Assembly (NCBI RefSeq): GCF_015220045.1
Contig: NZ_JADBGB010000001.1
Location: 1,021,001-1,085,000, forward strand
Direction of reading: 5' to 3'
Length of the DNA stretch: 64,000 bases
From: Marivivens aquimaris
GTDB taxonomy: Bacteria; Pseudomonadota; Alphaproteobacteria; Rhodobacterales; Rhodobacteraceae
In this document: piece after piece, positions 23,094-59,078 of the stretch
Numbering within the stretch: position 1 is the first letter of the stretch
Layout of the letters: every line of letters starts with the position of its first letter
Notes under the pieces: model-generated
What the model saw: only the letters and a program-made list of their open reading frames with translations
What the model was told of the DNA's origin: nothing
Database searches by the model: none
Translations under genes and position numbers: made by a program

Positions 23094-23663
23094 TTAGCCG
23101 TTCCACGTACGCACGCCACCACAGTCCATGTGGACGAAGTTCGAACCACGATAGGTGCCGACGCCGCCCGCTTGGCACGACTGTGCTGCCGAAGCCATCT
23201 GGGTGATCGAACGGCTTTGCAGACGGAGGTCTGCGGCCTGTGCCTGCATGTGCAGCGAGTTCTTGGCCACGCCCGACGAACGGCTACGCAGCATCGCGTT
23301 GGTTTCCGGCGAACGATAGCCCGAGAGCATCATGTACGGCTCGTCGGTTTCGAGCATGTTGTGGACTGCTGCCATAATGTCGATCGTGCGAGTGTCGACG
23401 TTTTTGGTCTGGCCGTTGCGCCAGTCGCGCATGAAGTAGGTAACCTGATCCACGGCTTCGCGGATATAGTCGCCTTCGACCCAGTAGATCATGTCCACTT
23501 TTTCACCGGTACGACCCGAGTACATCTTGATGCGGCGAATATCTCCCGCACCACGAAGGAACCCAGCGGCCTTGGAAAACGTTGGTGCTGCAACAACGGT
23601 CGTTGCTGCGAAAGCACGCAGAAGTCCACGCCGAGTGAAACCCGTAGAGGTATGTTCAGTCAT
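23094..23663 (-). CDS. DUF882 / YcbK (MepK-like) exported peptidoglycan peptidase
   Basis: The 189-residue protein carries a twin-arginine signal (FTRRGLLRAFAATT) and then a DUF882 domain with GYRSPETNAMLR, NSLHMQAQAADLRL and FVHMDCG. The His, Asp and His in these motifs match the zinc ligands of M15-type peptidases. E. coli MepK (YcbK) of this family cleaves 3-3 crosslinks in peptidoglycan. That role fits the neighbour, a divergently transcribed L,D-transpeptidase that makes such crosslinks. Export through Tat suggests it folds, probably with its metal, before transport. Confidence 0.85.
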   Translation of the reverse strand: MTEHTSTGFTRRGLLRAFAATTVVAAPTFSKAAGFLRGAGDIRRIKMYSGRTGEKVDMIYWVEGDYIREAVDQVTYFMRDWRNGQTKNVDTRTIDIMAAVHNMLETDEPYMMLSGYRSPETNAMLRSRSSGVAKNSLHMQAQAADLRLQSRSITQMASAAQSCQAGGVGTYRGSNFVHMDCGGVRTWNG

Positions 23664-35982: not shown

Positions 35983-36561
35983 ATGCGAATTTTGGCGATT
36001 GCTGCGGTATGCAGCGTGGTTGCTGGTGGCGCGCTGGCGGATAGCGTGTCGTCGTCGGGCCGGATGGCCCTGTTCCAGAGCCAGTTGTCAGTCCTCGATG
36101 GCCGTGCATCCGAGCAGTACTCGACCTCCAGCCGTTTGATGCCGACCAGCCCGCCTGCGCCGATTGCCGTGTCGGCTCCGGCTTACAATGGCGGTTATAG
36201 CGGCGAGTATCTGACGATGGCCCGCTCGGCTGCCAGCAAGTATAACGTGCCCGTTGATCTGTTCCTGCGCCTCGTGCAGCAGGAGAGCGGCTGGAACTCT
36301 TCCGCCAAGAGCAGCAAGGGCGCGATCGGTCTGGCGCAGCTGATGCCGGCGACTGCGACGTTCCTTGGTGTCGATCCGCACAATCCGCGTCAGAACCTCG
36401 AAGGCGGCGCGCGTTATCTGCGGATGCAGTACGACCGTTTTGGCGACTGGCGTCTGGCGCTGGCTGCCTACAACGCGGGCCCTGAGGCCGTGGACCGCTA
36501 TGGTGACGTGCCGCCGTACCGCGAGACCACCCACTATGTCGCGGTGATCTGGGGCAGTTAA
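35983..36561 (+). CDS. Lytic transglycosylase SLT-domain protein
   Basis: The 192-residue exported protein has a signal peptide (MRILAIAAVCSVVAGGALA), a Ser-rich stretch, and a C-terminal SLT domain (about residues 75-190) with the catalytic glutamate in RLVQQESGWNSSAKS, GAIGLAQLMPATA, YLRMQYDRFGDWRLALAAYNAGPEAV. Such enzymes cut glycan strands of peptidoglycan with formation of anhydro-muramic ends. Its last four bases overlap the AraC-type gene on the other strand. The 194-base gap before it, shared with ssb, holds no clear operator. Confidence 0.92.
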   Translation: MRILAIAAVCSVVAGGALADSVSSSGRMALFQSQLSVLDGRASEQYSTSSRLMPTSPPAPIAVSAPAYNGGYSGEYLTMARSAASKYNVPVDLFLRLVQQESGWNSSAKSSKGAIGLAQLMPATATFLGVDPHNPRQNLEGGARYLRMQYDRFGDWRLALAAYNAGPEAVDRYGDVPPYRETTHYVAVIWGS

Positions 36562-52091: not shown

Positions 52092-57252
<5,161 letters not shown>

Positions 57253-57260
57253 TTCCTGAA

Positions 57261-57295
57261 GTTCCGAAATGTTCACAAATGTTCTTAAAAAGTTC
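57261..57295. promoter_or_regulatory. LexA operator (SOS box) in an array of GTTC half-sites
   Basis: GTTC at 57281-57284 and 57292-57295 are separated by exactly seven bases (TTAAAAA), giving the same operator type as at lexA. Two more GTTC half-sites at 57261 and 57271 continue the series at 10-base steps. GAAC half-sites lie at 57310 and 57319. The array lies between recG and the 40-residue membrane protein, 66 bases before its ATG. Confidence 0.75.
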
Positions 57296-57360
57296 TTTAT
57301 CGAATCGCAGAACTATGAGAACAAAGTGGCAACAAAAACGCCAAACAAGGAGCCGACGAC

Positions 57361-57483
57361 ATGGCAAAGGATATCAAATCCCTCATCACCCGTTCTCCGC
57401 AGACGGTTCTTTCTGATCTTGCAGGTGTCGCGGCCATCGCCGTGATGTTCTACGCAGCGATGGTTCTGCCTGGCGTTTTCTGA
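57361..57483 (+). CDS. Small membrane protein behind a LexA operator (40 residues)
   Basis: The reading frame starts with ATG eight bases after AAGGAG (57347-57352) and encodes MAKDIKSLITRSPQTVLSDL followed by one membrane helix (LAGVAAIAVMFYAAMVLPGVF). The N-terminus is positively charged and should stay in the cytoplasm. No family is recognised with certainty. The LexA operator upstream implies induction by DNA damage. In Caulobacter an SOS-induced membrane peptide of similar size (SidA) blocks cell division; this could be a functional counterpart, which is inference only. Confidence 0.68.
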   Translation: MAKDIKSLITRSPQTVLSDLAGVAAIAVMFYAAMVLPGVF

Positions 57484-57632
57484 CTTTGAATACGTGTTTC
57501 GTGCCGGTCGGTTCCGTCACCAGTTTGCCCCTGGTCTGACGTGACTGCCTGCCTGTCCCGAGATGCAGTCTAACGGATCCCTGCCTCTTCCGTTTTTCTC
57601 ACCGACCGGATTCCCACACGCAACACGCACTT

Positions 57633-57673
57633 ACCGCCGCCATCCAAGGGGATGAGCGGCGGTTTCTTTTTTC
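57633..57673. terminator. Long-stem terminator before the soluble chemoreceptor gene
   Basis: ACCGCCGC plus CATCC (57633-57645) pair with GGATG and GCGGCGGT (57650-57663) with one bulged A and the loop AAGG, 13 bp in all, followed by TTCTTTTTT. The preceding 150 bases after the 40-residue gene hold no further gene. Confidence 0.8.
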
Positions 57674-57689
57674 TTACGATGGCGGGGGA

Positions 57690-59078
57690 TCAGATCGTGT
57701 AGGCGAAGCGCAGACCGCCCCAGTGTTTGCCTTTGACGATGATCGGAGCCGAGAGGTCCTTCATCATCCTGAACTCACCGCCGCCCATGTCGCGGCGATA
57801 GACTTGCAGCAGGAACGGCTCGCGGCTGCGGCCCGCCTTCAGACCCACACGGTCATTGAAGATGCGGCGGTTGCGGCAATGCGCGGTGTTCCAGACAGGG
57901 TCGGGGCCTTGGGGCAGAGAGAACTTCGCATTGTGCGTCGGCAGGTAGCCGTTGTCGTCGACGGCGGCGCAGAACACCACGCGCTGATCGAAGTACGCGG
58001 CGGCTTCGAGGTACTGCGGGAGTACGCTATCTGTGAACCGCGTGAAGCGGGTCATCATCTGTTCGGGATTGGTGTTCGGGATCGGCGTGTAGTTGCGGTC
58101 GAACAGGTCGTCGAGGCGGATATTCCCGCGGTCGATGGCCTCTTCGAATTTCTTGCTGATGGTCTGGGCCAGATCGCGAACGTAGTTGATGAACCGCTGG
58201 TCCTGCGACGCGCCGCCACCAAGGATGCTGAGGCGCACGATCTCTTCGCTGTCATCGACCAGCGCGTTGATGCGGTCGCGGCTTTCCTCGACGCCTGCGG
58301 CTGTCTCGGCAGCGGCTTGGCTGATCGAATGGAAGGCGGGCCCAAAGGAGCCGATGGACTGCGAAATCCTCTCCGCTTCGCCGGACATGGCGTGAGTGGT
58401 GTTCACCGTGCCTTGCATCTTTTCCGACATGGCGGACATCTTCTGGTCGGTCTTTTCGACCTCCTCGATGACGTGGCTGGCCTTTTCCTGCACGCCAGTC
58501 GCTTCCTTGCGGAGCGCGGCAAAGCTCTCGCCCATCTTCTCGACGCTTCCGGTCACGGCGTCGGCGGCGCTGGTGGTGCTAGCGGACAGTTCGTTGATCG
58601 CATCGGCGACCACGGCAAAACCCTTACCGAAGCGGCCCGCGCGGACGGCTTCGATCTTGGCGTTGATGGCGAGGATATTCACCTGACGGGCGATCGAGGT
58701 AATTTCCGCGTTCTGGCGCTCCACCGAACGGAGTGTATCCACGACCTCGCCGATGCGGGTGTCCAGCGCCTTTACCCAGTTCGCGATCTCGCGGCTGCCT
58801 TCGTTGCTGATGCGGGCGCTCTCGATGCTCTCGTTGAGGGCCGCGAGGTTGCTTGTCGCATTGCCTGCGACGGTCTGGATCGCCTCCTGAACGGAGTCGT
58901 TGATTTCCAGAATTTCGCGCACGCGGGTTTCCAGCGCGGTCATCTCGTCCTGCTGCTCTTTCGCAGCTTTCCCGATTTCGTCCAGCGCACCGGCGACGTC
59001 TACAATGCCCGACGCCATGCGGGAGCCGACTCCCGAAACCTGATCAAGTACGCGCGTAATATCTTCGACTTTGGTCAT
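57690..59078 (-). CDS. Soluble methyl-accepting chemotaxis-type protein with C-terminal sensor domain
   Basis: The 462-residue protein has no membrane segment. The signalling helices come first (about residues 1-270), with the hairpin tip ITSIARQVNILAINAKIEAVRAG and FAVVADAINELSA. The C-terminal domain (about 320-462) contains RVVFCAAVDDNGYLPTHN, WNTAHCRNRRIFNDRVGL and PFLLQVYRRDMGGG, a conserved PAS/Cache-like sensor in alphaproteobacterial receptors. The order signalling-then-sensor is reversed from classical receptors. The start at 59078 has AGGA six bases upstream. Confidence 0.88.
   Translation of the reverse strand: MTKVEDITRVLDQVSGVGSRMASGIVDVAGALDEIGKAAKEQQDEMTALETRVREILEINDSVQEAIQTVAGNATSNLAALNESIESARISNEGSREIANWVKALDTRIGEVVDTLRSVERQNAEITSIARQVNILAINAKIEAVRAGRFGKGFAVVADAINELSASTTSAADAVTGSVEKMGESFAALRKEATGVQEKASHVIEEVEKTDQKMSAMSEKMQGTVNTTHAMSGEAERISQSIGSFGPAFHSISQAAAETAAGVEESRDRINALVDDSEEIVRLSILGGGASQDQRFINYVRDLAQTISKKFEEAIDRGNIRLDDLFDRNYTPIPNTNPEQMMTRFTRFTDSVLPQYLEAAAYFDQRVVFCAAVDDNGYLPTHNAKFSLPQGPDPVWNTAHCRNRRIFNDRVGLKAGRSREPFLLQVYRRDMGGGEFRMMKDLSAPIIVKGKHWGGLRFAYTI

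Follow-up and report, generated by a model that had tools for sequence, protein, structure and literature searches.

The locus lies in a 64,000-nucleotide stretch of the Marivivens aquimaris genome (NZ_JADBGB010000001.1, positions 1,021,001 to 1,085,000), which we call the window and whose numbering is used below. Behind recG, it carries two predicted LexA operators, a 40-codon frame for a putative membrane protein, and a structured 3' RNA followed by an intrinsic terminator:

55138-57252, forward strand: recG, the conserved upstream neighbour, placed by its frame in the window and by conserved gene order
57271-57274, forward strand: GTTC half-site additional to the two operators, 10 bp upstream of operator 1 and conserved in 115 of 128 loci
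57281-57295, forward strand: predicted LexA operator 1, GTTCTTAAAAAGTTC, a GTTC-N7-GTTC repeat supported by conservation and a matrix
57319-57333, forward strand: predicted LexA operator 2, GAACAAAGTGGCAAC, GAAC-N7-NAAC with one degenerate half-site
57347-57352, forward strand: Shine-Dalgarno AAGGAG, read from the sequence
57361-57483, forward strand: small gene for a predicted single-pass membrane protein, 40 codons with an ATG start
57484-57633, forward strand: conserved structured 3' RNA, recognized by its fold, repeated motifs, and covarying stems
57545-57560, forward strand: RNA motif CTGCCTGCCTGTCCCG, within the 3' RNA
57580-57587, forward strand: RNA motif CCTGCCTC, within the 3' RNA
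57634-57673, forward strand: intrinsic terminator, a CCGCCGCC stem followed by a T run, from sequence and fold

The four GTTC half-sites (57261, 57271, 57281, and 57292), the GTTC-N7-GTTC repeat at 57281-57295, the AAGGAG, and the 40-codon frame reported by a first-pass annotation of this DNA are all present. The small-protein family is found in most of the sampled family genomes: a profile built from 30 proteins (profile A1) matched in 171 of 198, and in 150 of the 174 good assemblies, with one match per genome save for G046, which has two. As a single-sequence query, the lone window protein matched in 86 of the 198. The arrangement of frame and operator behind recG recurs in relatives. Among 134 loci, recG is upstream in 129, and an exact GTTC-N7-GTTC (operator 1) lies within 160 bp upstream in 130. 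This locus set combines 132 loci fetched from the 171 profile-positive genomes with two from a class-wide search; the 39 profile-positive genomes dropped by hand were mostly weak matches or short contigs. For the best 80 of 112 named loci (Ruegeria, Leisingera, Phaeobacter, Sulfitobacter, and others), recG is upstream in 80 of 80, operator 1 is present in 78, and both operators are in register in 77.

Two of the 27 profile-negative genomes, G001 and G023, carry diverged copies behind recG, and these are the true copies among the 10 of those 27 genomes in which the operator pattern matched when up to 3 mismatches were allowed. The class-wide profile search of 385 genomes returned five strong matches, every one from the window's family, together with matches in four genomes of other families (E 0.006-0.009) that covered part of the profile. 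At E 0.01, a protein collection yielded 553 entries; the source names shown for the best 120 of these read hypothetical or uncharacterized and include SPO1682 of Ruegeria pomeroyi DSS-3. The record JAHVJD010000001.1, titled Nocardioides marinus, also holds this Rhodobacteraceae locus with recG and is probably mislabelled.

Comparison across these genomes supports the gene, and the frame almost certainly encodes a real membrane protein. Divergence by codon position is 0.48, 0.33, and 0.63 (113 loci) versus 0.72 at each position past the stop, which shows selection on the protein. Protein length is 39 to 40 residues in 124 of 134 loci, with a full range of 36 to 43. A spurious frame was considered and rejected, given that codon-position divergence and fixed length show selection on the protein. 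The predicted helix is similarly supported by comparison: a hydrophobic 19-residue stretch (mean at least 1.76) occurs in all 134 proteins, and charged residues are absent past position 22 in 133 of them. The annotation had described one membrane helix and a charged N-terminus; a helix is predicted in 134 of 134, and the N-terminal 20 residues are indeed charged, but their net charge averages just +0.2. By prediction, the protein would have a single-pass inner-membrane topology.

The operators and their spacing are also supported by comparison. Of the 134 loci, 132 have operator 2 in the form GAAC-N7-NAAC, and the spacing between the two operators is 38 bp in 122 of the 128 loci with both in register. 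A perfect GAAC-N7-GAAC stands in register at operator 2 in 3 of 134 loci, as well as in G001 and Pseudorhodobacter turbinis. An upstream alignment of 97 loci reads tGTTC.C.aATGTTCT.AaAAAGTTCTTtACa, followed by a variable stretch and TGAGAACAAAg.ggcAACa. The proposed array of four half-sites fared unevenly, given that the one at 57271 is widely kept (see above) and the one at 57261 is kept in just 25 of 128 loci. Similarly, the annotation was right about operator 1, which is conserved, but it overlooked the better-scoring second operator at 57319-57333.

A bare GTTC-N7-GTTC is common both in the window (5 versus 2.65 expected, with 15 of 100 shuffles reaching 5) and genome-wide (161 versus 81 for a reversed control pattern), and therefore other evidence was needed. 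The window count alone would permit a chance operator, but conservation in 130 of 134 loci does not, and we rejected that explanation. With as many as 3 mismatches tolerated, the pattern AATGTTCTNAAAAAGTTCTTTA occurs a single time in the genome. A LexA matrix trained solely on 26 lexA and 26 recA operators of relatives ranked operator 2 second (score 14.4) and operator 1 fifth (7.5) in the 64-kb window; rank 1 went to lexA's own operator, itself in the training set. Other SOS sites in the genome scored 15.9 (uvrA), 17.2 (uvrD), and 15.4 (mmcB), with genes named from translations. Some chance sites score at least as high as operator 1 (the maximum among 11 others is 8.4), and the case for operator 1 therefore lies in conservation and register, not in score. 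Given that both operators are conserved and picked out by the lexA/recA matrix, LexA control of the small gene is very probable, and we infer LexA binding and induction by DNA damage. Both the SOS control by LexA and the small single-pass membrane protein that the annotation had predicted are well supported by comparison.

We also considered how the small gene is distributed relative to lexA, a gene that was detected in 185 of the 198 genomes of the family and in 169 of the 174 good ones. The small gene is present in 8 of the 13 genomes without lexA, several of which are fragmented assemblies. Among the good genomes without lexA, the gene is absent in G029, G167, and G195 and present in G069 and G160. 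By profile, the small gene is thus missing from 3 of the 5 good genomes that lack lexA versus 21 of the 169 that have it (p 0.019, uncorrected for kinship, with 2 of the 21, G001 and G023, carrying diverged copies). Gene loss alongside lexA is suggestive only.

The structured 3' RNA and the second operator are new beyond the annotation. The 3' region of the window (57484-57690, terminator included) has a fold z of -3.57, and the CUGCC and CUGUCC motifs between stop and terminator occur far above shuffles: over the 114 loci, of 134, whose end could be read, CTGCCTG averages 1.23 versus 0.03 and CTGTCC 1.47 versus 0.13. Shuffles for motif counts, hairpin stem scores, and the ftsZ duplex preserved base composition alone, and the RNA tests omit loci in which the terminator or motif could not be read. 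One hairpin presents CUGUCCC in its loop on a stem that varies on both sides, with a stem score of at least 5 in 58% of 93 loci versus 20% in shuffles. Comparison supports the RNA stems as well. In an arm-swap test of the closing stem, own arms gave -18.5 versus -13.0 kcal/mol for swapped arms (n=93), and own arms were also better for the CUGUCCC hairpin (n=89) and for two further stems (n=38 and n=39). Permutations reached the observed result in 0 of 300 cases for each of the four stems versus 16 of 300 and 63 of 300 for two coding controls. Inspected by eye, 36 of the 67 single folds resembled one another, with a branched middle in addition to a closing stem and the terminator. For 15 relatives aligned with MAFFT, RNAalifold recovered the terminator as the sole structure, and a second hairpin motif, CTGCCTGT, was barely above shuffles (4.3 versus 3.8, n=42). 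Rfam gave no match on window positions 57200-57800; on 8 loci, it gave two matches, both in locus L026, which lie away from the 3' RNA and score far under the gathering thresholds. Taken together, we consider the 3' RNA likely to be functional.

CUGCCUGUCC, a motif of the 3' RNA, is matched at the start region of a DUF882 gene, which resembles murein peptidases, and less closely at that of ftsZ; the controls gave mixed results. Two wall genes in the window were the best of its 60 crude gene starts when matched to the RNA consensus motifs:

23094-23663, reverse strand, start at 23663: DUF882 (Peptidase_M15_2) gene, with ACGGGACAGG just before the start codon
35983-36561, forward strand, start at 35983: SLT transglycosylase gene, with ACGGGACAGG just before the start codon

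The DUF882 start and the RNA of the same genome form 11 perfect pairs in G000, 11 in G173, and 10 in G127, and GGACAGGC precedes DUF882 in all three; the DUF882 gene was found in just two of 27 relatives' stretches, namely, G127 and G173, and neither it nor the transglycosylase was found in 20 further stretches. GGACAGGC also stands before DUF882 in 5 of 5 Rhodobacterales plasmid records at 60-80% identity (P. turbinis, Paracoccus pantotrophus, P. ferrooxidans, and two of P. versutus, the four Paracoccus records being nearly identical), and it was not found at the annotated DUF882 starts of Agrobacterium or Sinorhizobium. In P. turbinis, the RNA is down to 6 matching bases, so the start motif is kept there without its partner. 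The match at the transglycosylase start is not kept in G073, and a related GACAGGCGG occurs at that start in G163.

At ftsZ, CAGGCGGA stands ahead of the start in all 16 examined genomes that carry the small gene, where predicted pairing with the RNA consensus motifs spans 8-10 bp with one G-U. The same motif is found before ftsZ in 8 of 21 readable profile-negative genomes (G001 being one of the 8) and in none of 6 genomes from other families, a distribution that could be explained by kinship. Duplex energy of the whole ftsZ region with the RNA was no better than shuffled (mean z -0.67, n=16). At gene starts, ACAGGCGG was not enriched (2 of 563, with 133 of 250 permutations reaching as many), and GGGACAGG was enriched (6 of 563, with 2 of 168 permutations, the motif itself included, reaching as many) in a control that was post hoc, made after two window matches were noticed, and that used crude gene starts. 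GGGACAGG occurs 7 times in the window versus 1.99 expected. We regard the predicted RNA-target pairing as a lead, and action of the 3' RNA on ftsZ or wall genes as a tentative suggestion with the odds against it. In locus L375, an ftsZ-type ACAGGCGGA lies 4 nt before the GTG of a GyrA-like frame.

We propose that the small gene is a LexA-repressed SOS gene whose protein restrains septation or growth of the envelope in a SidA-like way, possibly assisted by the RNA as a second arm, and we assign this reading a probability of roughly 55%. LexA on the two operators around the promoter would keep the gene off. Upon RecA-induced cleavage of LexA, one transcript would be made that carries the frame for the 40-residue inner-membrane protein, the folded 3' RNA, and the intrinsic terminator. 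The protein would hold septation or envelope growth during DNA repair, in the manner of SidA, and the 3' RNA could form a second arm that acts on cell-wall or division mRNAs. The topology and the job of the protein are what we infer here; that it is a division or envelope brake is plausible at slightly less than even odds, and a division role is without sequence support, given that no Pfam or NCBIfam family model fits (single-member matches only, at E 0.01 or worse, for 30 proteins). The annotation had suggested a division inhibitor like SidA or a membrane toxin, both of them putative functions here; a gene that most of the sampled family keeps as one copy in one position looks more like a core checkpoint factor than like a toxin. 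A stricter version, in which a two-armed SOS checkpoint transcript encodes a peptide that holds the divisome and bears CUGCCUGUCC-type RNA loops that stop translation of ftsZ and of two peptidoglycan hydrolases (the DUF882 peptidase and the lytic transglycosylase), seems rather unlikely. If it were true, one LexA-controlled RNA would halt septation and wall cutting across a bacterial family.

The protein could instead be an SOS membrane protein with a partner outside the divisome, such as a protease, a transporter, or gene-transfer-agent release. The invariant D19 and G22 at the head of the helix (113 forty-residue members) and the conserved LPG-like end suggest a specific partner, but no observation points to any of these, and the link to gene-transfer agents comes only from family range and general background; we consider this unlikely. 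A toxin resembling TisB, the LexA-controlled small membrane peptide of Escherichia coli that is paired with an antisense antitoxin, is less probable still. Such a toxin would lower the membrane potential and favour dormancy under restraint by RNA structure or an antisense RNA, and the probable LexA control, the length of about 40 residues, the one hydrophobic helix, and the RNA structure on the same transcript all agree with it. Against it stand the occurrence of the gene as one copy in a conserved position across most sampled family members and a plasmid and phage search with the window protein at E 0.01, in which the gene was not found; in P. turbinis, the gene is located on a 1.58-Mb replicon.

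It is very improbable that the promoter is read by another direct-repeat regulator, such as an OmpR-family activator, instead of LexA. The GTTC repeats, three in number and separated by steps of 10 and 11 bp, or about one helical turn, would suit such a protein, as would an operator 1 in which A, not the T of most other SOS sites in the genome, precedes the second GTTC, and no clear -10 element was found at the promoter. However, the lexA/recA matrix picks both sites, operator 2 is perfect in some relatives, and the recA promoters of 26 relatives (L032-L057) show a similar element pair: they carry a perfect GAAC-N7-GAAC, in most cases with an AATGTTC-N7 element ahead of it whose last four letters are often GATC. 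The distance within the pair, measurable in 20 of the 26 relatives, is most often 28 bp. The lexA promoters carry GAAC-N7-GAAC in 26 of 26 relatives. It is also very improbable that the structured, motif-rich 3' RNA is what the gene chiefly makes, with the frame as just a leader: the frame shows protein-type selection and a fixed length, and the RNA motifs are weak in some gene carriers, such as P. turbinis.

The proposed hold on septation has several analogues. YneA, whose single segment is transmembrane, and SosA are Firmicutes proteins that we liken to the small protein by description. The available text on them presents YneA (Bacillus) and SosA (Staphylococcus) as SOS-induced division inhibitors, YneA with a single segment. 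Nearest in working to our proposed mechanism are SidA and DinR, and we claim relatedness to neither. SidA of Caulobacter crescentus is described in the available part of its report as an SOS-induced 29-aa inner-membrane protein that blocks division via FtsW (PMC4211646). The likeness lies in the SOS setting, which is predicted here, in the tiny inner-membrane protein, and in the alphaproteobacterial host; the difference is that the RNA tail is structured here, whereas none is mentioned for SidA in that part of PMC4211646. SidA is set beside the small protein by description; strong matches in the search of 385 genomes are confined to the window's family. DinR of Klebsiella pneumoniae is, in the accessible portion of PMC10907235, a 3'-end RNA of the LexA-controlled dinI mRNA that represses ftsZ at the ribosome-binding site. 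It likewise comes from the 3' end of a LexA-controlled small-gene mRNA, but dinI encodes a different protein, the RNA is unrelated, and the pairing here is predicted. Pos19 of Rhodobacter sphaeroides, from the same bacterial family, is also an RNA with a translated short frame and takes part in Hfq-dependent regulation, as far as the excerpt of PMC5036791 goes, but it is RpoE-controlled and belongs to oxidative stress.

No description of the gene was found in the titles and abstract starts of open-licence papers, and one may exist elsewhere; SPO1682 was not found mentioned in the open-licence literature. PMC4809877 makes no mention of SPO168, recG, LexA, SOS, or DNA repair, and the available content of PMC6473078, which gives predicted LexA sites in Dinoroseobacter shibae, does not include recG. 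Open-licence papers also yielded no description of how Rhodobacteraceae halt division after DNA damage. For this abundant marine family, the gene offers one candidate division stop, with clear operators, presence in most sampled genomes, and tractable strains, and the SOS response would gain a conserved RNA without an Rfam match.

Other LexA-like sites were noted along the way. The annotation had named ligA as a neighbouring repair gene, and we rejected it as support through co-regulation because a GTTC/GAAC-N7 repeat lies upstream of ligA in 0 of 24 relatives. In the window genome itself, a LexA-like GAACGTTTACAGAAC at 52850-52864 lies 33 bp before the ligA start; given the lack of such a repeat upstream of ligA in the 24 relatives, this site is local or due to chance. 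A LexA-like GAACATAAGCAGAAC at G000:C1:548088-548102 (L196) scores 24.0, with no convincing frame of at least 70 residues assigned to it, and perhaps marks another small SOS gene. A further LexA-like site at G000:C1:810158-810172 (L198; score 13.6) lies about 140 bp before a Lon-protease-like frame.
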